From: Planctomycetota bacterium
GTDB lineage: Bacteria; Planctomycetota; MHYJ01; WSZJ01
DNA: 64,000 bases
Assembly (NCBI GenBank): GCA_016190145.1
Contig: JACPRD010000135.1
Location: 1 to 64,000 of the forward strand
Reading direction: 5' to 3'
In this document: positions 25,456-37,743 of the stretch, piece by piece
Layout of the letters: every line of letters begins with the position of its first letter
How positions within the stretch are numbered: position 1 is the first letter of the stretch
Translations under genes and position numbers: made by a program
The notes under the pieces: model-generated
Databases searched by the model: none
Seen by the model: only the letters and a program-made list of their open reading frames with translations
Told to the model about the DNA's origin: nothing

Positions 25456-26118
25456 ATGTTCGACAGAATGCGATCTCTCGCCTTGAAGCTGAAAACCGCC
25501 GGCCCCGCCGCTGAAACGCGCCGGAGCGACCGCCGGCAGGCGGAGATCCTCGCCGGGTGCTCCCGGGTCATCGCGGAGCATGGATACGGGCGAGCCAGCA
25601 TCCGCAGGATCGCCGCCGAGATGGGAATGAGCATCTCCGCCCTGTACTACTGGTTCTCGTCGAAAGAGGAACTGCTCTTCGCCATCCAGTACCACGCGTT
25701 CCGCGAGCTGGTGGACGGGCTGGAGAAGAAGCTGGCCGCCGCGACGGAGCCAGAGCAAAAGCTGCGCATCCTCGTGGGGAATCACCTCGAGTACTTCCTG
25801 AACCGCCTCGACGCCCTGACCATCTGCTCCCATGAGACCAACACGCTCAAGGGGAAGGCCTGGGAGAGAGTGTGGGAGGTCCGGCGGCGCTACTACAACA
25901 TCGCGCTGGGCATCGTTCGGGAGATCCAGGCCGGCCACAAGACGCCGGCACTCCAGGCTTCGCTCGCGACCCTGAATCTCTTCGGGATGCTGAACTGGGT
26001 CCACATGTGGTTCAACCCGAAGAAGGACCGCTCCCACCGCCAGCTCGCGCAGGAGATCTCGGACCTCTTCCTGCACGGGATCAGCGGTGCGGCACGGACC
26101 GGGGGGGCGCCTTCATGA
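25456..26118 (+). CDS. TetR/AcrR-family transcriptional regulator
   Basis: QAEILAGCSRVIAEHGYGRASIRRIAAEMGMSISALYYWFSSKEELLFAI helix-turn-helix. Confidence 0.9.
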   Translation: MFDRMRSLALKLKTAGPAAETRRSDRRQAEILAGCSRVIAEHGYGRASIRRIAAEMGMSISALYYWFSSKEELLFAIQYHAFRELVDGLEKKLAAATEPEQKLRILVGNHLEYFLNRLDALTICSHETNTLKGKAWERVWEVRRRYYNIALGIVREIQAGHKTPALQASLATLNLFGMLNWVHMWFNPKKDRSHRQLAQEISDLFLHGISGAARTGGAPS

Positions 26119-27206
26119 GACGGCCGACGCGAAACGCCGGGCAGCTGAAGAAGCTCTATGCCACCGAGGACGGAAGACTCCAGGGGCAGGCCGGCTGGGA
26201 GAAGCTCCCCCTGTTCTGGTTCCACCTCTTCCTCTCCTACCAGTGCACGCGGCGATGCAGCTACTGCTACGCCCTGAACCAGGCCGAGGGCGGCGGGACC
26301 ATGGACGAGCGCACGTTCTCGCGGCTACTGGAGTGGATTCCGGAAGTCTGGCGGGCCAACCGCGTCAAGGTCAACGCGATCGGCTTCCTCGGCGGGGAGC
26401 CGCTTCTCCGGACGGATCGGATCCGGCGGGTCATGGACTCCATCTTCCGGAACACCGACGGCATGCAGGGGTTCGTCTACACCGCCGGCGACACCGTCGA
26501 CTCCGTGAACTGGGACGACCTCGAGGACATCCAGTGGATCTCGACGAACGTCACGGATCTCAGCCTCGAAGAGCTGTCGCGCCGGATGCGGGTCGTCGAG
26601 GAGCGCTCGAACGCGATCGGCCAGACGATCGTCGCGACGCTCGACGACGGAAACCTCGAACGCGTGCTGGAGATCACGCGGTTCGGGGTCGAGAAGGGCT
26701 ACCGGCTGCGGCTGTACCGGAACCTGTACCGGGGGCTGGACGACGAGTACAAGCGGCGGCTGCTGCGGAAGTATCACGAGGTCTGCGACCTGCTCGAGAA
26801 CTACGCGAGCCGCGGATTCGCGATCCACACGACGTTCCTGCTCGACACGCTGATCCCGACGTGGAGCCAGGAGACTTCGCCCTACCCCTGCGGCGAGAGA
26901 GCTGCCGTCGTCTTCCCGGACGGCTCGATCGGCCCCTGCATCCGGAACCACACTTCCAAGGTCGGCACGGTGTTCGACCCGGATCCGGTGGCGCGGCTCC
27001 AGTCCCCCGAGTTCCGCTACGACCTGAAGCGGCCGGAACTCCCCGAGGACTGCCGGACGTGCGAGTCGCGCACGGCCTGCCAGGGGGGATGCCCGAACGA
27101 CCGCGTGATCCTGACCGGCACCGCCACGGGCCGGTCTCCGATGTGCGAGATCCACAGGGAAATCATTCCGAGGCTGCGGCGTCTGGAGGCCCTGAAAAGA
27201 GCATGA
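26115..27206 (+). CDS. Radical SAM/SPASM protein, possibly acting on the AOR cofactor
   Basis: LSYQCTRRCSYCYALN (CX3CX2C), GFLGGEPLL, C-terminal CRTCESRTACQGGCPNDR; ATGA overlaps with both neighbours. Confidence 0.85.
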   Translation: MRRPTRNAGQLKKLYATEDGRLQGQAGWEKLPLFWFHLFLSYQCTRRCSYCYALNQAEGGGTMDERTFSRLLEWIPEVWRANRVKVNAIGFLGGEPLLRTDRIRRVMDSIFRNTDGMQGFVYTAGDTVDSVNWDDLEDIQWISTNVTDLSLEELSRRMRVVEERSNAIGQTIVATLDDGNLERVLEITRFGVEKGYRLRLYRNLYRGLDDEYKRRLLRKYHEVCDLLENYASRGFAIHTTFLLDTLIPTWSQETSPYPCGERAAVVFPDGSIGPCIRNHTSKVGTVFDPDPVARLQSPEFRYDLKRPELPEDCRTCESRTACQGGCPNDRVILTGTATGRSPMCEIHREIIPRLRRLEALKRA

Positions 27207-29173
27207 GATACGCAGAGATGGGTTACCACCTCGAGGTCGACCTGGCCACCGGAAACATCGAGCGCGTGGAGACCGACCCGAAGATCACCGAGTTGCATCT
27301 CGGCGGGCTGGGGACGAGCGTCAAGATCCACTGGGACCGCGTCCCCCCGGAGACGAAGCCGTTCGACCCGGAAAACCTGCTCGTTTTCAGCACCGGACTC
27401 TTCAACGGCACGCCCGCCTTCAGCGCGAACCGCACCGTCGTGACGTTCGTGTCGCCGCAGTCGGAGCTGCTCGCCTACCCGATGATGGGCGGGTTCTGGT
27501 CGGCGGAGCTGAAGTACGCCGGGTACGACAAGGTGATTTTCAAGAACAAGTCGCCGAAGTGGGTCTACCTCTGGATCAAGGACGACCACGTCGAGCTGCG
27601 CGACGCTTCGCACCTGAAGGGCACGGGGGCGCTGGAAGTGCAGGACCTGATCCGGGGCGAGCTGCACGAGCCGGACGCGCAGGTGGCGGCGATCGGGCTC
27701 GCGGGCGAGAACCGCTGTTTCACCGCTTCCATCGAGCAGTCCCGCTCCAGCTCCAGCCGGCTCGGCGGCGGCGCGATCATGGGCGACAAGAAGCTCAAGG
27801 CCGTCGCGGTTCGCGGCACGAAGGACGTGCAGCTCGCGCGCGGCGACGAGTTCATGAAGCACATGAAGGACGTGATGGGCTACATCAACTTCCGCAACTC
27901 GAACCCGATCCCCGACGTGATGACGATCATGTCCGGCATCGGCTCGCCGCAGGAGATGGTCCACACCGACGAGAAATGGCACTCCGAGAGCTTCTCGTGG
28001 GGCAACGCCCGCACGCGTCGGAAGAACTTCTGGACCAAGGAAATCGAAGAGAGCTGGACGTCGACGCAGCACGCGGCGATCAAGCGGTTGATCAGCTGCT
28101 TCAACTGTCCGCAGCATTGCGGGGCGCTGATCAGCTACAAGGACGTGCCGCGCTACATGATGAAGTGCTTCTCGAAGCTGACGTACGCCATGGCGGCCAA
28201 CGTGGACGACCTGGGGTTCAGCTTCAGGACCGTCCAGCGCGCGCAGGAGTATGGCGTTGACGGCTTTTCCACCCCGCAGATCCTGGCCTTCGCCATCGAG
28301 CTCAAGGAAGCGGGGATCCTGACGGACAAGGACTTCGAGGGCGCTCCCCCCGACAAGGAGGGCCGCTTCATCTGGCTGCTCGACCGTCTCGTCCGGCGGG
28401 AGGGCATCGGGGACGTGCTGGCGGACGGCACGTACTGGGCGGCGAAGAAGATCGGCAACGGGGCCGAGGAATTCGCGCACAACCTGATCAAGAAGCACGA
28501 GCAGCTGCCGATCAAGCTGAGCATGCTCGATCCGCTCTACTTCCTCATGTATTCGACGAACGAGAAGATCAGCATCACGCAGATCGAGGGGAACTGGCCG
28601 CAGGCGGCGTTCGCCACGAGGGAGCAGCGCGAGCGGTTCGTGAAGGAGTGGCCGCAGCTCCCCGACGAGAAGTTCAAGCAGTACCTGCTCGACTGGGAGC
28701 CGCGGGGCGAAAAGGGAATCCCGTACTTCCCCACTCCCGACATGTGCTGCGAGATCGTCGACTGGATGGAAATGCTGCACAACATCGACGACGCGCTCGG
28801 GGTGTGCGCCGGCATGGCGTCCTTCTGCCTGAAGCCGCCCTACCACATCAACAACTACCCCCAGCTGATTTCGGCCGCGACGGGGATGGACGTGGACCGC
28901 GACGAGCTCAAGCGGAAAGTGAACCGGAGCCGCAACCTGCACCGCGCGTTCAACAACCGCCGGGGGATGGCGCGGGCCGACGAGAAGCCGCCCAAGGACC
29001 ACTGGAAGAACCGCTTCCCCGAGCTCGAGGAAAACCTGCTCACCACCTACTACCGGTACAAGGGCTGGAACGACAACGGCATTCCGACGAGGAAGCGGCT
29101 GGAGGAGCTGGATCTGGGGTACGTCGCCGACGACCTCGAAAAGAGAGGGGTCCTGACCAATGGCCACGGTTAA
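27203..29173 (+). CDS. bamB: Tungsten-dependent AOR-family oxidoreductase, BamB-like
   Basis: 656 aa; MRYAEMGYHLEVDLATGNIERV...LHLGGLGTSVKI...SFSWGNARTRRKNFW...LISCFNCPQHCG...ALGVCAGM; followed by bamC-I-like genes. Confidence 0.75.
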   Translation: MRYAEMGYHLEVDLATGNIERVETDPKITELHLGGLGTSVKIHWDRVPPETKPFDPENLLVFSTGLFNGTPAFSANRTVVTFVSPQSELLAYPMMGGFWSAELKYAGYDKVIFKNKSPKWVYLWIKDDHVELRDASHLKGTGALEVQDLIRGELHEPDAQVAAIGLAGENRCFTASIEQSRSSSSRLGGGAIMGDKKLKAVAVRGTKDVQLARGDEFMKHMKDVMGYINFRNSNPIPDVMTIMSGIGSPQEMVHTDEKWHSESFSWGNARTRRKNFWTKEIEESWTSTQHAAIKRLISCFNCPQHCGALISYKDVPRYMMKCFSKLTYAMAANVDDLGFSFRTVQRAQEYGVDGFSTPQILAFAIELKEAGILTDKDFEGAPPDKEGRFIWLLDRLVRREGIGDVLADGTYWAAKKIGNGAEEFAHNLIKKHEQLPIKLSMLDPLYFLMYSTNEKISITQIEGNWPQAAFATREQRERFVKEWPQLPDEKFKQYLLDWEPRGEKGIPYFPTPDMCCEIVDWMEMLHNIDDALGVCAGMASFCLKPPYHINNYPQLISAATGMDVDRDELKRKVNRSRNLHRAFNNRRGMARADEKPPKDHWKNRFPELEENLLTTYYRYKGWNDNGIPTRKRLEELDLGYVADDLEKRGVLTNGHG

Positions 29174-29693
29174 GAAGCGCATCAGGACGATCAAGGTCGA
29201 CGCGGACAAGTGCAACGGCTGCCGCGGGTGCGAGGTGATCTGCTCCGCGATCCATGCGCAGCCCAAGTACAGCAGCGTCAACCCGGCGCGGTCGCGCATC
29301 CGGGTGATCACGCACCGGCTGCAGGACATCTGGCTGCCGGTGTTCGCGGGCGAGTACGCCCGCTCCGAGTGCGCGGGGCGCGAGGTCTACACGATCGCGG
29401 GCAAGCAATACGACGAGTGCGGCTTCTGCCGGGCTTCGTGCCCTTCACGCGGGCTGTTCAAGGAACCCGACTCCGGGCTGCCGCTGAAATGCGACATGTG
29501 CGAGGGGGAGGACAGGCCGCAGTGCGTGGAGTGGTGCCTGAGCCACGTCCTCACGTACGAGGAGCGGGAAGAGGAAGTAGAGGAGGAGGCGGAGAAGCTG
29601 GAGGACCTGCAGATCGGGCTGGAGGCGCTGGCGGACAAGTTCGGGGTGGAAAAGGTGAAGGATGCGATGGCCCGGCTGAGCAGGAGCGAGTAG
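29160..29693 (+). CDS. bamC: 4Fe-4S ferredoxin-type protein, BamC-like
   Basis: CNGCRGCEVIC, CGFCRASCPS, CDMCEGEDRPQCVEWC; start overlaps the AOR gene. Confidence 0.75.
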   Translation: MATVKKRIRTIKVDADKCNGCRGCEVICSAIHAQPKYSSVNPARSRIRVITHRLQDIWLPVFAGEYARSECAGREVYTIAGKQYDECGFCRASCPSRGLFKEPDSGLPLKCDMCEGEDRPQCVEWCLSHVLTYEEREEEVEEEAEKLEDLQIGLEALADKFGVEKVKDAMARLSRSE

Positions 29694-29697
29694 TGAC

Positions 29698-30852
29698 ATG
29701 GAAACCAAGGCGCCGGTTCCGGAGATCGTCGACGAGGTGAAGGCGGCCGGCGGGCACACGTACCGGCTCTGCTACCAGTGCGGGAAGTGCGACGCGGTCT
29801 GTCCGTGGAACCGCGTCCGGTCGTTCAGCATGCGCAAGACGATCCGGGAGGCGTCGCTGGGCATCCCCGAGATAGAGAGCGACGACCTCTGGCGGTGCAC
29901 GACGTGCGGGACCTGCCCGCAGAAATGTCCGCGGGGGGTCGACCAGATCAAGCTGGGCGTTTCGCTGCGCCGGGTCGCGACGAACTACGACGTGCTCGGC
30001 GCTTCCGCGGGCGCGATCCGCTCGGCGAGGGGCAACCTCGCGACGCGGGGGAATCCTTTCGGGGAGGAGCGGGCCGCGCGGACGGGGTCGGCGGAGGGGC
30101 TGGCCGTGAAGCCGTTCGCCGAGGGGATGGAGATGCTGTTCTTCGGGTGCTGCTACCTCAGCTACGACGCGAGGCTGAAGAAGGTCGCGCGGGCGGCGGT
30201 CGAGATCCTGAACAGGGCCGGGGTCGACTTCGGCGTCCTGGGCTCCGCGGAGAGCTGCTGCGGCGAGAGCATCCGCAAGACGGGCGCGGAGAAGGTGTTC
30301 CGGGACCTGGCGCGGGAGAACATCAAGGCGTTCATCGATCGCGGCGTGAAGAAGATCGTCGTCGCTTCGCCCCACTGCTACGAGGCGTTCCGGAAGGACT
30401 ACGCGGAGTTCATGGTGAACTTCGAGGTCCTCCACATTTCGCAGCTCCTGCTCCCCCTTCTCCGGGAAGGGCGGCTCAAGGTCACGGGCGAGTACCGGAA
30501 GAAGGTGACGTACCACGATCCGTGCTACCTGGGCCGGCACAACGGGATCTACGACGAGCCCCGGGAGGTTCTTCGCCACATCCCCGGCCTGGACCTCGTC
30601 GAGATGCGCGACACGCGCCAGAACAGCCTGTGCTGCGGCGGCGGGGGCGGCGGCGTGTGGATGGAGACGCCGAAGAAGGAGCGCTTCTCCAACCTGCGCG
30701 TGAAACAGGCTGTGGACGCCGGGGCCGCGGTGCTGGCGACGGCGTGCCCTTACTGCATCACGATGTTCGAAGAAAGCCGTCTCGGCCTCGAGGCGGAAGG
30801 CTCCCTGGAAGTCCGGGACATCACCGAGATCGTTCGCGACGTGACCCACTAA
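29698..30852 (+). CDS. bamD: HdrD-like Fe-S protein with CCG domains, BamD-like
   Basis: CYQCGKCDAVCP, CTTCGTCPQKCPRG, YHDPCYLGRHNGIYDEPREVL, NSLCCGGGGGGVWME. Confidence 0.78.
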   Translation: METKAPVPEIVDEVKAAGGHTYRLCYQCGKCDAVCPWNRVRSFSMRKTIREASLGIPEIESDDLWRCTTCGTCPQKCPRGVDQIKLGVSLRRVATNYDVLGASAGAIRSARGNLATRGNPFGEERAARTGSAEGLAVKPFAEGMEMLFFGCCYLSYDARLKKVARAAVEILNRAGVDFGVLGSAESCCGESIRKTGAEKVFRDLARENIKAFIDRGVKKIVVASPHCYEAFRKDYAEFMVNFEVLHISQLLLPLLREGRLKVTGEYRKKVTYHDPCYLGRHNGIYDEPREVLRHIPGLDLVEMRDTRQNSLCCGGGGGGVWMETPKKERFSNLRVKQAVDAGAAVLATACPYCITMFEESRLGLEAEGSLEVRDITEIVRDVTH

Positions 30853-30864
30853 AGGACGAGCCCC

Positions 30865-33800
30865 ATGCAGAAGACTCAGCGCGAAGTCCGCCAGGCAGAC
30901 GTCATGGTGATCGGCGGCGGGATCAGCGGCATCCAGGCCGCGCTCGACGCGGCCGGCGCCGGCTTCAAGGTCACCCTGGTCGAGAAGGGACCGAGCCTGG
31001 GGGGCCACATGGCGCAGCTCGACAAGACCTTCCCGACGAACGACTGCTCCATCTGAATCCTCGCACCAAAAATGGTGGAGGTTCTCCGCCATCCGAACAT
31101 CGAGGTCCTCTCCTACTCGGAAGTCAGCCGGGTGGAGGGATCCGCGGGGGATTTCCGCGTCTCCGTGACCCGCAAGCCGCGCTACATCGACGAGGACATC
31201 TGCACGGGCTGCGGCTCGTGCGTGAAGTACTGCCCCAAGCCGTCGCCCGACCTGTTCAACCGGGAGATCAAGGACGGAAAGGCCGTGCACATCTACTTCT
31301 CCCAGGCCATTCCGCTGGTCGCCTACATCGACGAGAACTGCCTCGAGCTGACCGAGGGCAAGTGCGACATCTGCCGCGGCGTGTGCCAGAACAAGGCCAT
31401 CGACTTCCGGCAGACGGCGGAGACCGTGGAGATCCGGGTCGGGGCGATCATCCTGTCCACCGGGATCGCGCCGTTCGACCCCGCGGCGGTGGAAGACTAC
31501 GGCTACAAACGCTTCCCGAACGTGATCACCGGCATGGATTACGAACGCCTCCTCTCCGCGACCGGGCCGTGGCAGGGGCGCATCCTCCGCGCGTCCGACG
31601 GGAAACATCCCGGGAAGATCGCCTGGATCTCCTGCGTCGGTTCCCGGCGCGTCACCGCGGGAGAGCACAGCTACTGCTCCGGCGTCTGCTGCGCGTACAC
31701 GCAGAAGCAGGTGATCCTGACGAAGGAGCATGAAGCCGACGCGGAATGCACCGTCTTCCACAACGACATCCGCGCGATGGGCAAGGACTTCGAGCGGTAC
31801 TACCAGAGAGCGGCCGAACTCCCCGGCGTCCGCTTTGTCCGGGGCTACCCCGCCATCGCCGGCGAACGCCCCGATACTCACAACGTCGTCCTGAGATACG
31901 CGACTGCGAACGACGGCGTGAAGGAAGAGGAGTTCGACCTTGTCGTGCTTTCCGTCGGCCTGAGCCCCTCCGCCGATTCCCGGAAGATCGCCGGCACGCT
32001 CGGGCTGGAGCTCAACGCGCACGGGTTCGCGCGGACGAGCTACGCGAATCCCCTCGGGACGTCCCGCGCCGGGATCTTCGTGAGCGGCGGCCTGCAGGGG
32101 CCGATCGACATCCCCGAGTCGGTCTTCGGCGCCAGCGGAGCCGGCGCGCAGGTCGGCGAGCTCCTCGACTACCGGCGGGGACTCCTGGCCGAAAAGCGCG
32201 TCTACCCGCCCGAGACGAACTGCGCCGGGAAGGAGCCGCGGATCGGCGTCTTCGTCTGCCACTGCGGCGAGAACATCGCCAGCGTCGTGGACACCCGCTC
32301 CGTCGTCGAGTACGCCCGCAAGCTGCCCAACGTCGTCCATGCCCAGCAACAGCTCTTCTCGTGCGCCAACAACTCCATCAACGAAATCCGGGAACTCGCG
32401 ACGGGAAAGGGGCTCAACCGCGTCGTGATCGCCGCCTGCTCGCCCCGGACCCTCGAAGCCCTCTTCAGGGACACGCTCCGTGAAGCCGGGCTCAACCCGT
32501 ACTTCTGCGAGATGGCGAACATCCGCGAGCAGTGCTCCTGGGTCCATTCGAAGCAGAAGGAAGCGGCGACGCAGAAGGCGAAGGACATCGTCCGGATGTC
32601 CGTCGCGCGCGCGGGACACCTGGAGCCGCTTCAGGGATTCGACCTCCCCGTCCACAAGACGACGCTCGTCGTCGGCGGCGGGATCGCGGGCATGACCTGC
32701 GCGCTGGCGCTCGCCCGGCAGGGATATCCCGTGCATCTCGTGGAGAAGTCGAAGGAGCTGGGCGGGATGGCCCGGCGGATTCACGCGACGCTCGAGGGCA
32801 TGGACGTGCAGGCGTACGTGCAGGAACAGGTCGGGGCGATCTACCGGCATCCGCTCGTCCACGTGTCGCACGGCGCGTCGATCAGGAGCGTGTCCGGCTA
32901 CGTGGGCAACTTCACGACGGTCGTGGAGGCCGAAGGCCGCACCCGGGAGATCCGCCACGGCGCCGCCGTCATCGCCACGGGCGCGGACGTCCATCGCCCC
33001 GCCGAGTACCTCTACGGAGAAAACGAGCGCGTGCTCACCCACCTCGAGCTGGGCGAGCGCCTCGCGCTGAAGGACGCCGCCGTCGCCGGCGCCCGGAGCG
33101 TCGTCATGATCCAGTGCGTCGGCTGCCGGAACGCCGACCGCAACTACTGCAGCCGCGTGTGCTGCAGCCACGCCGTCAAGAACGCGCTGAAACTGAAAGA
33201 GCTCAACCCGAAAACGTCCGTCACGATCCTCTACAGGGACATGCGCACGTACGGGTTCAAGGAGGACTTCTATCGCGAAGCGGCGGACAAAGACGTCGCT
33301 TTCGCCCGGTACGAGCCGGAAAACAAGCCGCAGGTTGAAGCGGCCGTCAACGAGCAGGGGGAGCCCTGCCTCCGGATCCGCGTGGCGGATCCCATCCTGG
33401 GCTGCCAGCTCGAACTGACCGCCGATCTCGTGTCCCTCGCGGCCGCGGTGATCCCCTCCGCCTCCACACGGGAGATCGCTTCCCTGTTCAAGCTGCCGCT
33501 GAGCCCCGACGGATTCTTCAAGGAAGCCCACGTCAAGCTGCGCCCCGTCGAGTTCGCCACGGAAGGCGTGTACCTGTGCGGGATGGCCCATTACCCCAAG
33601 CACATCGAGGAGACGATCAAGCAGGCGTACGGCGCGGCGGGCCGGGCCATGACGCTCCTCGCCCACGACACCGTCGCGGCTTCCGGATCCGTGTGCGAAG
33701 TCAACGAGCCCGAGTGCGTCACGTGCGGCGCGTGCATCACCGCCTGCGCGTACGGGGCCATCGAATTCCACGAGGGCCCGGCCGGTAAGCGCGCCCGCGT

Positions 33801-33927
33801 GAATCCGATCCTCTGCAAGGGGGACGGGCTCTGCTGCACCAAGTGTCCGACGTCCGCCATCAGGATGAAGCACTTCACACAGGAGTCGCTGTTGAGCCAG
33901 ATCGAGGCGGCCGTCGCGCAGGTTTAG
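30865..33927 (+). CDS. bamE: Double HdrA-type flavin/Fe-S protein, BamE-like; selenoprotein (Sec at TGA 31054-31056)
   Basis: ORFs 30865-31056 and 31072-33927 share a frame; joined ...[34 protein letters not shown] matches the HdrA NDCxxCILxPKxVEV motif with Sec for Cys; second FAD module at [36 protein letters not shown]. Confidence 0.85.
31072..31092 (+). promoter_or_regulatory. Candidate SECIS hairpin of bamE-like mRNA
   Basis: ATGGTGGAG-GTT-CTCCGCCAT: 9-bp stem (one U.G), loop GUU starting at nt 25 after UGA. Confidence 0.65.
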
Positions 33928-33941
33928 AGAGGAGAGGACCG

Positions 33942-34721
33942 ATGATCGCGGGCGTCGAATTCAGGCCGAAAATCCTCGGGCTCTTCTGCCACTGGTGAGC
34001 GTACGGAGCGGCGGACACGGCGGGAGTTTCCCGCCTCCAGTACGAGAGCGAGATCCGGGTCATCCGCGTGATGTGTTCGGGTCGGGTCGACCTGGACCTG
34101 ATCCTCAAGGCGTTCGAGGTCGGCCACGACGGGGTGCTGATCGGCGGCTGCATGCTGAACCAGTGCAATTACGTGACGCAGGGAAACTACGACGCGCTGG
34201 GCAACACGTACATCGGCCGAAACCTGCTGGCGCGGATCGGTCTGAATCCCGAGAGGCTGGGCATCGAGTTCATGTCCGGCGGCGACGGCAAGCGGCTGGC
34301 CGACGCCGTCAACGGCTTCTCCGCGAACGTGAAGAAGCTGGGGCCGCTGGGCGAGGCGGAGGGGATCGGGAGGGCGGAGATGGGCGAGGCCCTGGCGGCC
34401 GTCCGGAGCATGACGCCCTGGCTCAAGCTGGTGGAGCGCGAGAAGCTGCGCGTTCCCGAGCGGACGGAGGAGGGATACCACAGGTTTTTCGCGAGCGAGG
34501 AAACGATGCGGCTCATGGACGAGTGGATCGGCGGCACCGTGACCATCGGCCGGATCCTGCACCTGCTCCGCCGGAAACCGCATTCGACGGGCGAGATCGC
34601 CGGATTCCTGAAGCTGAGCCCTTCGGAAGTCGCCCGGCACATGAATACCTCGTCCCGTCAGGGCTGGGTCGCGTACGACATCGACTCCCGCCGTTATTCG
34701 CTTCCCCTGGGCCAGGAGTAG
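33942..34721 (+). CDS. bamF: MvhD-family protein, BamF-like; selenoprotein (Sec at TGA 33996-33998)
   Basis: MIAGVEFRPKILGLFCHW-U-AYGAADTAGVSRLQYESEIRVIRVMCSGRVDLDLILKAFEVGHDGVLIGGCMLNQCNYVTQGNYDA; in-frame TGA replaces the second Cys of the MvhD CxxC. Confidence 0.87.
34019..34035 (+). promoter_or_regulatory. Candidate SECIS hairpin of bamF-like mRNA
   Basis: GGCGGGA-GTT-TCCCGCC: perfect 7-bp stem, loop GUU starting at nt 28 after UGA. Confidence 0.65.
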
Positions 34722-34724
34722 ACC

Positions 34725-35177
34725 ATGGAAATGAAAACCATCGACGGCATCATCGAGCGTCACCAGGTCGAGCCCAGCGCGCTCATCCAGATCCTGCTGG
34801 AGATCCAGAGGGAGTACCACTGGCTTCCCCAGCCGGCGCTGCACGAGGTCGGCCGCCGGCTGCAGGTGCCGATGTCGCGCATCCAGCACGTCGCGACCTT
34901 CTACAAGGCGTTCAGCATGGTCCCGAAAGGGCGCCACCGGGTGAACATCTGCATGGGGACCGCATGCCACGTGCGCGGCGCTTCGCGCATCCTGGAGACC
35001 GTGCAGGAGCACGCGGGCGTCGGGCCGGGGGAGACGGACCTGGAGCACAAGTTCAGCGTCGAGACGGTCAACTGCATCGGCTGCTGCGCGCTGGGACCCG
35101 TGATCGACGTCAACGGGAAGATCCACGGCAGGTTGACCCGGGCGGAGACGGCTGGAGTGCTGGAGAGGTGCGAGTAG
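34725..35177 (+). CDS. bamG: NuoE/HoxE-like 2Fe-2S subunit, BamG-like
   Basis: CMGTACHVRGASRILETV...TVNCIGCCALGPVIDVNGKIHGRL. Confidence 0.8.
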   Translation: MEMKTIDGIIERHQVEPSALIQILLEIQREYHWLPQPALHEVGRRLQVPMSRIQHVATFYKAFSMVPKGRHRVNICMGTACHVRGASRILETVQEHAGVGPGETDLEHKFSVETVNCIGCCALGPVIDVNGKIHGRLTRAETAGVLERCE

Positions 35178-35185
35178 GGGGAACC

Positions 35186-37114
35186 ATGGCGAAATTCCTG
35201 ACGCCCGAAGATCTGGAGCAGTTCCGGCGGACGCTCCTCTCCCAAAGGGACGCGAAGAAGCCCTGCGTTTCCGTCTGCACGGGCACGGCGTGCCTCGCCA
35301 ACAGCGCCGCCGAAGTCATGGAAGCGGTTTCGAGCGAGACCGCCCGGAAGGGACTTGCGGCGAGCGTGGACGTCAGAAGCACGGGGTGCCACGGCTTCTG
35401 CGAGCGGGGCCCGGTCGTGGTCGTCAACCCCGAGGAGACCTGCTATCTCGGCGTGTCGCCGAAGGACGCGACGGAGATCCTCTCGCAGACCATCGAGAAC
35501 GGAAAGGTGGTCGACCGCCTGCTCTACGCGAACCCGGTCACGGGCGAGAAAACCGCCGTCGAGTCGGACATCCCCTTCTACAAGGGCCAGACGCGGACTC
35601 TGCTTTCGAGCAACCTCCGGATCGACCCGAAGAGCCTGGACGACTACGTGTCGATCGGCGGGTACTCCGCGCTCAGCAAGGCGCTGTCCCGGCTGACGCC
35701 GGAGCAGGTCATCGACACGGTCAAGAAGTCGAAGATCCGCGGCCGGGGCGGCGCGGGTTTTCCGACGGGCATCAAGTGGGAAGGCTCGCGCCAGGCTCCG
35801 GGAGAGATCAAGTACGTGATCGTGAACGCCGACGAAGGCGATCCCGGGGCTTCCATGGACCGGACGCTCATGGAGGGAAACCCGCATTCGATTCTCGAGG
35901 GGCTGATCATCGGCGGCTACGCCGTCGGCGCGCAGGAAGGATACGTCTACGTCCGGCAGGAGTACCCGCTCGCGGTGGAGAACATCCTGCTGGCGATCGA
36001 GCAGGCCGAGGCGCACGGCCTTCTCGGAAGGAACATCCTCGGTTCCGGATTCGATTTCGCCGTCAAGGTGCACCGCGGCGGCGGCGCGTTCGTGTGCGGC
36101 GAGTCGACGGCGCTGATGACGGCGCTGGAGGGGCGCGCGGGCGAGCCCCGGCCGAAGTACGTCCGCTCCAACGTCCGCGGCCTCTGGAACCGGCCCAGCG
36201 TGCTCAACAACGTCGAGACGTGGGCCAACATCCCGCTGATCGTCAACAACGGCGCCGACTGGTTCACGCGGATCGGGACCGAGAACAGCACGGGCACCAA
36301 GATCTTCTCGCTCGTCGGCAAGATCGCCCACACCGGCCTCGTCGAGGTCCCGATGGGGATCTCCCTGCGCGACATCATCTTCAAGATCGGGGGCGGCATC
36401 CCCGGCGGGAAGAAATTCAAGGCGGTCCAGACCGGCGGCCCTTCCGGCGGATGCCTCCCGGAAAACCTGCTGGACCTCGGCGTGGATTTCGACGAGCTGG
36501 AAAAGGCCGGCTCCATGATGGGTTCCGGCGGCATGATCGTCATGGACGAGGACACCTGCATGGTGGACGTTGCCCGCTACTTCGTTCATTTCCTCACCGA
36601 CGAGTCCTGCGGCAAGTGCGTCCCCTGCCGCGAGGGCCTCCGGCAGATGGACAGGATCCTGACGCGCATCACCGAGGGTCAGGGGAAGGAAGGCGACCTC
36701 GAGATCCTCGAGGACCTGTCGGTCGTCCTCGAGGAGGCCTCGCTCTGCGCCCTCGGGAAGAGCGCCCCCAACCCGTTCCGGAGCACCCTTCGCTACTTCC
36801 GCCACGAGTACGAGGCGCACATCCGGGAGAAGCGCTGCCCGGCGCTGTTCTGCAAAAAGCTGGTTTCGTTCTACATCGAGCCCGACAAGTGCCGCGCATG
36901 CATGATCTGCATGAAGAAGTGTCCCGTCCACGCCATCGACGGGGCCAAGCGGAAGATCCACATCATCGATCAGAACACCTGCAACCATTGCGGCACGTGC
37001 CTGGAAGTCTGCCCCGCGAGGTTCGACGCGGTGCGGGCGATTTCCGGCCGGCCGGTTCCGCCTCCGATCGCCGAGGAGCGGAGAATGGTCGCCATCATGG
37101 GCAAGGAATCATGA
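35186..37114 (+). CDS. bamH: NuoF/HoxF-like FMN/NAD(H)-binding subunit, BamH-like
   Basis: RGRGGAGFPTGIKWE, VNADEGDPGASMDR, GAFVCGESTALMTALEGRAGEPRPK, SCGKCVPCREG, C-terminal CRACMICMKKCPVHAI / CNHCGTCLEVCPARF. Confidence 0.87.
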   Translation: MAKFLTPEDLEQFRRTLLSQRDAKKPCVSVCTGTACLANSAAEVMEAVSSETARKGLAASVDVRSTGCHGFCERGPVVVVNPEETCYLGVSPKDATEILSQTIENGKVVDRLLYANPVTGEKTAVESDIPFYKGQTRTLLSSNLRIDPKSLDDYVSIGGYSALSKALSRLTPEQVIDTVKKSKIRGRGGAGFPTGIKWEGSRQAPGEIKYVIVNADEGDPGASMDRTLMEGNPHSILEGLIIGGYAVGAQEGYVYVRQEYPLAVENILLAIEQAEAHGLLGRNILGSGFDFAVKVHRGGGAFVCGESTALMTALEGRAGEPRPKYVRSNVRGLWNRPSVLNNVETWANIPLIVNNGADWFTRIGTENSTGTKIFSLVGKIAHTGLVEVPMGISLRDIIFKIGGGIPGGKKFKAVQTGGPSGGCLPENLLDLGVDFDELEKAGSMMGSGGMIVMDEDTCMVDVARYFVHFLTDESCGKCVPCREGLRQMDRILTRITEGQGKEGDLEILEDLSVVLEEASLCALGKSAPNPFRSTLRYFRHEYEAHIREKRCPALFCKKLVSFYIEPDKCRACMICMKKCPVHAIDGAKRKIHIIDQNTCNHCGTCLEVCPARFDAVRAISGRPVPPPIAEERRMVAIMGKES

Positions 37115-37743
37115 GCACAGTCCACCTGACAATCGACGGAAAGGACGTCGAGGCGGAAGAAGGAACGAGCCTGCTGGCGGCGGCCCGGAGCGCGGGAATC
37201 CCGATTCCGACGCTCTGCCACCACGACAAGCTCGAGGCGCTGGGCGGCTGCCGCCTCTGCATGGTGGAAGTGGAATCCCGTGGAAAGACGCGGCTCGTCG
37301 TCTCCTGCGTCTACACGGTCGAGAAAGGACTGACGGTCCGGACGCGGTCCGCGAAGCTGGAGCGGATCCGCAAGGGCATCCTGGAGCTCCTGCTCGCCCA
37401 CGCGCCGGACTCCCCGCAACTCGCCGAGCTGGCGCGCGAGTACGGCGCAGACCGGAACCGCTACGAGCCGGAATCCTTGTTCTGCATCCTCTGCGGTCTC
37501 TGCGTCCGCTACTGCGCCGAAGTCGTCGGAAAGCACGCGGTAGGTTTCATCGACCGCGGCATCCGCAAGGAGATCAGCTTCATTCCGGAAATCGCCGCGA
37601 AGGAGTGCGACGCCTGCAAGGCCTGCTTCCCGCTCTGCCCGACGTCGTATCTGCAGGCGGCTTACGTGCTGACGGGATCGCTCGTGTTTCCCGACGGGTG
37701 CTCCACTGCATTTCAGTCGTCCAGAGGGCCATCCTCGCCATGA
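37111..37743 (+). CDS. bamI: NuoG N-terminal-like Fe-S subunit, BamI-like
   Basis: IPTLCHHDKLEALGGCRLCMVEVE, FCILCGLCVRYC, CDACKACFPLCP; ATGA overlap with NuoF-like gene. Extreme C-terminus looks atypical. Confidence 0.8.
   Translation: MSTVHLTIDGKDVEAEEGTSLLAAARSAGIPIPTLCHHDKLEALGGCRLCMVEVESRGKTRLVVSCVYTVEKGLTVRTRSAKLERIRKGILELLLAHAPDSPQLAELAREYGADRNRYEPESLFCILCGLCVRYCAEVVGKHAVGFIDRGIRKEISFIPEIAAKECDACKACFPLCPTSYLQAAYVLTGSLVFPDGCSTAFQSSRGPSSP

Follow-up and report, generated by a model that had tools for sequence, protein, structure and literature searches.

The question raised by this locus is why a radical SAM protein should be encoded inside the operon of a tungsten enzyme, and on what it would act. 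Class II benzoyl-CoA reductase, a tungsten enzyme sensitive to oxygen, catalyzes the reduction of aromatic rings, which is among the lowest-potential biological reductions known, and annotation already recognizes a class of radical SAM maturases associated with tungsten oxidoreductases. The locus lies on a 64,000-nucleotide stretch of DNA from a Planctomycetota bacterium (contig JACPRD010000135.1), here called the window. A radical SAM/SPASM gene had been predicted between a regulator and the catalytic subunit of an AOR/BamB-like enzyme, joined to both by ATGA overlaps, and the coordinates and the matches to PF04055 and TIGR04085 bear this out. We suggest that the product of this gene (rSAM) probably serves one clade (clade A) of BamB, the catalytic subunit of class II aryl-CoA reductase, as a dedicated maturation factor. 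The features of the operon are the following.

25456..26118, + strand: TetR-family regulator (TetR_N and TetR_C_24 by Pfam), first gene of the operon, also upstream of rSAM in L033 and L034
26115..27206, + strand: rSAM, radical SAM/SPASM protein of 363 aa, PF04055 and TIGR04085 above cut-off
26244..26267, + strand: CxxxCxxC radical SAM cluster motif, Cys44-Cys51, invariant in the alignment
26889..27146, + strand: seven-Cys SPASM motif (Cys259, 275, 313, 316, 322, 326, 344) by TIGR04085, in 17/17 aligned relatives
27203..29173, + strand: bamB, tungsten-containing catalytic subunit, placed in clade A, from Pfam, the match to 4z3w and the tree
29160..29693, + strand: bamC-like polyferredoxin, from profile searches
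29698..30852, + strand: bamD-like gene (HdrC/HdrB-type, CCG domains), from profile searches
30865..33927, + strand: bamE (HdrA-like), from a profile search, with an in-frame TGA (31054-31056), probably selenocysteine
33942..34721, + strand: bamF (MvhD/FlpD-like), from Pfam, with an in-frame TGA (33996-33998), probably selenocysteine
34725..35177, + strand: bamG (NuoE-like), from profile searches
35186..37114, + strand: bamH (NuoF-like), assigned by inspecting the sequence and by its place in the operon rather than by a profile search
37111..37743, + strand: bamI (NuoG-like N-terminal part), from sequence inspection and operon position

The stop codon of tetR (TGA, 26116-26118) overlaps the ATG of rSAM at 26115, and the stop codon of rSAM (TGA, 27204-27206) overlaps the ATG of bamB at 27203, each as a 4-nt ATGA. 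The tetR/rSAM overlap recurs with the same length in the relatives L033 and L034, and the rSAM/bamB overlap in L035. The protein scores 35.2 bits with PF04055 Radical_SAM (cut-off, 29.5) and 40 bits with TIGR04085 SPASM (cut-off, 27), and it stays below the cut-off of the Pfam SPASM profile PF13186 (18.5 versus 21.5 bits). The SPASM motif C-x9-15-G-x4-C ... C-x2-C-x5-C-x3-C ... C is complete in the protein and in all 17 aligned relatives, in which Cys44, Cys48, and Cys51 are invariant; Cys224 is also invariant in this 17-row alignment. Only about 40 residues stand ahead of the radical SAM motif. None of the NCBIfam equivalog models searched with rSAM was passed, and the NCBIfam and Pfam profile searches gave no match to PqqD/RRE profiles.

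Judged by its sequence, the gene 3' of rSAM encodes a genuine catalytic subunit of class II benzoyl-CoA reductase, BamB itself and not merely an AOR/BamB-like protein. It matches 4z3w, the solved enzyme from Geobacter metallireducens, over its full length with 1001 bits and aligns with Geobacter BamB at 64.3% identity. The operon is complete (bamBCDEFGHI), with bamB at its head downstream of tetR-rSAM. One in-frame TGA lies in the BamE HdrA motif (NDCSI-U-IL) and the other in the BamF CHW-U motif, both at the position of a motif cysteine, so both proteins are best read as putative selenoproteins. The order tetR-rSAM-bamBCDEFG is kept in a second Planctomycetota genome, the nearest relative, with 77% identity for rSAM and 88% for BamB. 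The genes around the operon encode unrelated proteins (TPR, HEAT, SpoIIE, and the like) and thus give no clue to the substrate. Although a tungsten-pterin enzyme is encoded, the genome of the window (G000, 85% complete) gave no match to MoeA_N, which may reflect missing sequence.

The rSAM set comprised 23 genomes: 17 loci from a scan of 85,000 species, two Desulfobacterota-type and three Bacillota loci from genome searches, and the window. The carriers thus belong to three phyla, namely, Planctomycetota, Desulfobacterota-type bacteria, and Bacillota, and the family members share 59 to 77% identity with the window copy. A family profile search of 29 genomes found rSAM in single copy wherever it is present, including that of Desulfosarcina cetonica, a draft copy with a frameshift, and no other match at an E value of 1e-6. 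The family is therefore isolated, with no intermediate homologues found, and it appears never to have been named. In the draft genome of D. cetonica, the rSAM coding sequence (L048:729-1819) is divided between two frames, by either a sequencing error or gene decay.

That the family might lack any association with AOR-family genes in other genomes is decisively contradicted, since a bam gene lies within about 2 kb of rSAM in 20 of the 23 genomes and MoeA, the Mo/W insertase, is the immediate neighbor in seven (L041, L042, L043, L044, L048, L049, and L188; identity confirmed by Pfam in representative cases). The placement of rSAM varies: it may precede bamB, follow bamC, or follow bamI (Desulfosporosinus lacus, L036), and at some loci a gene for MoeA, FdhD, or a xylose-isomerase-like TIM barrel stands between it and bamB or bamC. 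Two different MoeA genes flank rSAM in L042, L043, and L044, and FdhD lies inside the bam operon in Desulfosporosinus. In L048 and L188, rSAM stands beside MoeA with no bamB on the contig. D. cetonica has MoeA-rSAM on one contig and a MoeA fragment beside bamB on another, which looks like a MoeA-flanked arrangement broken over contigs. The sole locus with neither a bam nor a MoeA neighbor is on a 5-kb Syntrophus contig (L047).

BamB was found in 16 of the 17 scanned rSAM genomes. In the exception, L043, the genes adjacent to rSAM are bamE and bamF, which reach the end of the contig; G1088 (L188) was outside the BamB search. Because these loci were found through rSAM, they are uninformative on how often BamB lacks it, but the phylum samples do inform on this point. 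Among 297 Desulfobacterota genomes, 78 encode BamB, 12 encode clade-A BamB, and three encode rSAM; all three belong to the clade-A group (hypergeometric p = 5e-5), the other nine members of which lack rSAM. BamB occurs in 13 of 392 genomes of the window's own phylum and rSAM in two of those 13. In the sampled genomes with canonical BamB only, no rSAM was found. These counts indicate that rSAM implies clade-A BamB and that the reverse does not hold. A general requirement of BamB for rSAM is rejected by the 11 BamB genomes of the phylum that lack it. The distances of rSAM and of the linked BamB covary (Mantel r of 0.53, rising to 0.76 when the long-branch Desulfosporosinus pair is left out; p = 1e-4), and most subgroups of the two proteins match across phyla. 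MoeA was found in the flanks of 11 of 27 clade-A BamB loci versus 1 of 30 canonical loci (p = 7e-4), counts that are approximate because flank lengths are unequal between loci and often limited by contig ends.

In a tree of 70 BamB sequences, every rSAM-linked BamB falls in clade A (32 members, support of 1.0), the sister of the Geobacter BamB clade. Clade-A proteins share 58 to 67% identity with Geobacter BamB, and canonical members share 68 to 82%. About 18 differences between the groups are nearly fixed, and many of them lie at positions 442 to 464 and 521 to 541 of Geobacter BamB (for example, N442D, G452N, F464W, Q521M, Y526N, and P541C). Cys542 is invariant in clade A and corresponds to Pro541 of Geobacter BamB; canonical BamB has Pro at this position. 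The tungsten ligand Cys322, whose role in BamB has been described (PMC12096430), is conserved in all clade-A members, and His260 is likewise retained in clade A. The window BamB keeps His260, Glu251, and Glu257 and has Thr in place of His255, a position that varies in some canonical sequences too. From these sequence differences we infer a remodelled substrate pocket in clade A. A BamB residue diagnostic for the presence of rSAM was sought and rejected, as only position 585 (R versus L, Geobacter numbering) loosely separates the groups.

The clade-A residues, Cys542 included, are also present in clade-A BamBs of genomes that lack rSAM. The existence of such genomes means that the rSAM step is dispensable, optional, or replaceable. 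One of these genomes, G569, matches Desulfococcus multivorans DSM 2059: it has two bamB copies at 2.74 to 2.75 Mb and the ring hydrolase at 2.80 Mb, and its BamB identities (64, 79, and 66%) equal those published for D. multivorans (PMC5109826). BamB1 of this organism, which belongs to clade A by this match, is made during growth on aromatics (PMC5109826), indicating that cells without rSAM produce a clade-A BamB that is probably functional.

The AF2 model of rSAM obtained with a deeper alignment (pLDDT of 74 and pTM of 0.80, replacing a first model with a pLDDT of 60) has a SPASM region that is partly of low confidence. Its best Foldseek matches are the SPASM maturases CteB (E value of 6e-12) and anSME. 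The resemblance to anSME (TIGR03942; PDB 4k39) covers the whole length (TM of 0.69 to 0.70) and includes a similar size, a full SPASM fold, and the lack of a leader-recognition domain. However, rSAM has only 16% identity and 41 bits against the 349-bit cut-off of TIGR03942, and its partner is no sulfatase. CteB and related RiPP maturases (PDB 5wgg/5why; NCBIfam PapB and Nif11 types) share the radical SAM core and the SPASM auxiliary-cluster domain with rSAM, which, unlike them, has no N-terminal recognition domain and in whose operon no precursor peptide was found. MoaA (PDB 1tv7 and 2fb2), which acts in Mo/W cofactor biosynthesis, is also a radical SAM enzyme; the auxiliary cluster at its C terminus is the only one it has (PMC9012708), whereas rSAM has the full seven-Cys SPASM motif and a TM of only 0.44 to 0.47 to MoaA. 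WorX and AorD-AorE are, like rSAM, products of non-subunit genes in AOR/WOR operons, and as ThiS/MoaD-like putative tungsten cofactor factors they have been proposed to act in cofactor maturation (PMC13328260 and PMC6365974), but they are small proteins and not radical SAM enzymes.

The closest annotated counterpart is TIGR04317 (W_rSAM_matur, tungsten cofactor oxidoreductase radical SAM maturase), which we take to correspond to Cmo of the archaeal AOR operons. It is SPASM-type as well, and its gene stands beside an AOR-family tungsten enzyme, as that of rSAM does. The profile scores, however, reject the identity of rSAM with this maturase. Its cut-off of 380 bits was exceeded in none of 11 genomes, and the window rSAM was absent among the matches listed. 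The bam-linked rSAM of Desulfosporosinus nitroreducens scores about 22 bits, and a separate near-member in the same genome scores 361 bits; two such near-members share only 21 to 22% identity with the window rSAM. By profile score, the rSAM family is thus separate from the TIGR04317 class. The recent reviews of tungsten oxidoreductases that were consulted do not mention a radical SAM protein for BamB, and the one paper found to name both a radical SAM protein and BamB is about a different activase.

It had been proposed that the protein may mature a tungstopterin cofactor or install a peptide modification. The bam and MoeA associations strengthen the link to tungstopterin maturation, a function that is itself inferred, and the target may be the cofactor, one of the residues of BamB or BamC, or another molecule. 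In the mechanism that we favor, rSAM would be translated in step with BamB from an operon headed by the TetR regulator, and the 5'-deoxyadenosyl radical together with the SPASM auxiliary clusters would make one modification at the tungsten site. The favored target would be the W-bis-pyranopterin cofactor, at around the time of tungsten insertion by MoeA, and the main alternative a residue of BamB or BamC. The neighboring MoeA and FdhD genes point to the making of the tungsten site, and for this reason we lean toward cofactor tailoring, which within a dedicated maturation role we hold to be somewhat short of an even chance; residue modification within that role is possible but rather doubtful. 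Still more specifically, this unnamed family might install a clade-specific modification in the pterin or protein ligand sphere of the tungsten site that tunes it for another aromatic substrate or a lower potential, an idea we offer only tentatively.

The CteB/anSME-like fold points instead to a protein or peptide substrate. An anSME-like maturase that acts not on the cofactor but on BamB or BamC, oxidizing or cross-linking one residue, would agree with these being the best full-length structural matches and with an N terminus too short for a leader-recognition domain, and Cys542, with its clade-A-specific conservation, would be a candidate residue. As this cysteine and the other clade-A residues occur without rSAM too, and as the recurrent MoeA and FdhD neighbors point to the cofactor, we regard such a maturase as a possibility on the doubtful side. 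If the protein-directed fold is followed further, rSAM could be a RiPP maturase whose precursor is encoded elsewhere, linked to bam through shared transfer of a mobile operon. The patchy, phylum-crossing distribution and the best subthreshold NCBIfam matches, to PapB and Nif11-type maturases, would fit this. The scores are nevertheless far under every RiPP cut-off. A leader-dependent RiPP maturase has a precursor gene nearby and a peptide-recognition element, and neither was found here: no precursor gene was found in the operon or has room between the overlapping genes of the window, and most other rSAM junctions are 4-nt overlaps or gaps of only tens of bases. The short N terminus and the missing space for a peptide gene make a leader-dependent role unlikely, and since the BamB or MoeA linkage persists through varied gene orders and the rSAM and BamB trees covary, a RiPP maturase of any kind is very improbable.

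A role in catabolism itself would make rSAM a radical SAM dehydrogenase or mutase of the aromatic-acid pathway that acts on an aryl-CoA-derived small molecule. The operon is a catabolic one with a TetR regulator, and the weaker Foldseek matches include the small-molecule enzymes DesII, SpeY, and BtrN. The canonical 6-oxocyclohexenecarbonyl-CoA hydrolase (TIGR03200) was not found in the window's whole genome (best score of 195 bits versus a cut-off of 464), above cut-off in the rSAM carriers G016 and G393, or at an E value of 1e-30 in D. nitroreducens, so the downstream pathway may differ. Against such an enzyme stand the nearest folds, which are those of peptide and protein maturases, and the two contigs with rSAM beside MoeA and no bamB, and we consider it unlikely. 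The reading of rSAM as a dedicated maturation factor for clade-A BamB is therefore retained, and in this role it would act on BamB or the cofactor of BamB.

This analysis goes beyond the original prediction in narrowing the partner to one particular BamB clade and in finding that most BamB enzymes are without rSAM and that rSAM lies outside TIGR04317. If a clade-specific maturase does travel with one BamB subtype across phyla, it would offer a concrete starting point for understanding the assembly and tuning of the tungsten site. It could also supply a component that heterologous production has lacked, and its sequence could serve to recognize an uncharacterized BamB subtype, including BamB1 of D. 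multivorans, in anaerobic degraders of aromatic compounds.

It is also of interest that other genes of a maturation type occur around these loci. In several genomes (L025, L157, and L168), FdhD is encoded no more than 2 kb away from canonical bamB, which suggests a sulfur-transfer step for BamB more generally. The xylose-isomerase-like TIM barrel gene (L117:10570-11412, L121:9584-10462, and L114:7022-7915) occupies the gap between bamC and rSAM in two genomes and stands a short distance 5' of clade-A bamB in one genome that lacks rSAM, and is possibly another maturation or pathway gene. At one locus (L039:6440-8699), genes for YqeC and a MobA-like NTP transferase, of the type involved in maturation of selenium-dependent Mo hydroxylases, lie on the opposite strand at least about 1.2 kb from rSAM; this pair was not seen at the other rSAM loci. 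A protein of about 1130 aa and an EgtD-like protein are encoded side by side upstream of clade-A bamB in two cases (L112:3221-6616 and L119:4816-8211). According to Pfam, the L112 protein combines a molybdopterin oxidoreductase and a class V aminotransferase/desulfurase domain in one fused chain, and the pair resembles a Mo-dependent ergothioneine pathway.
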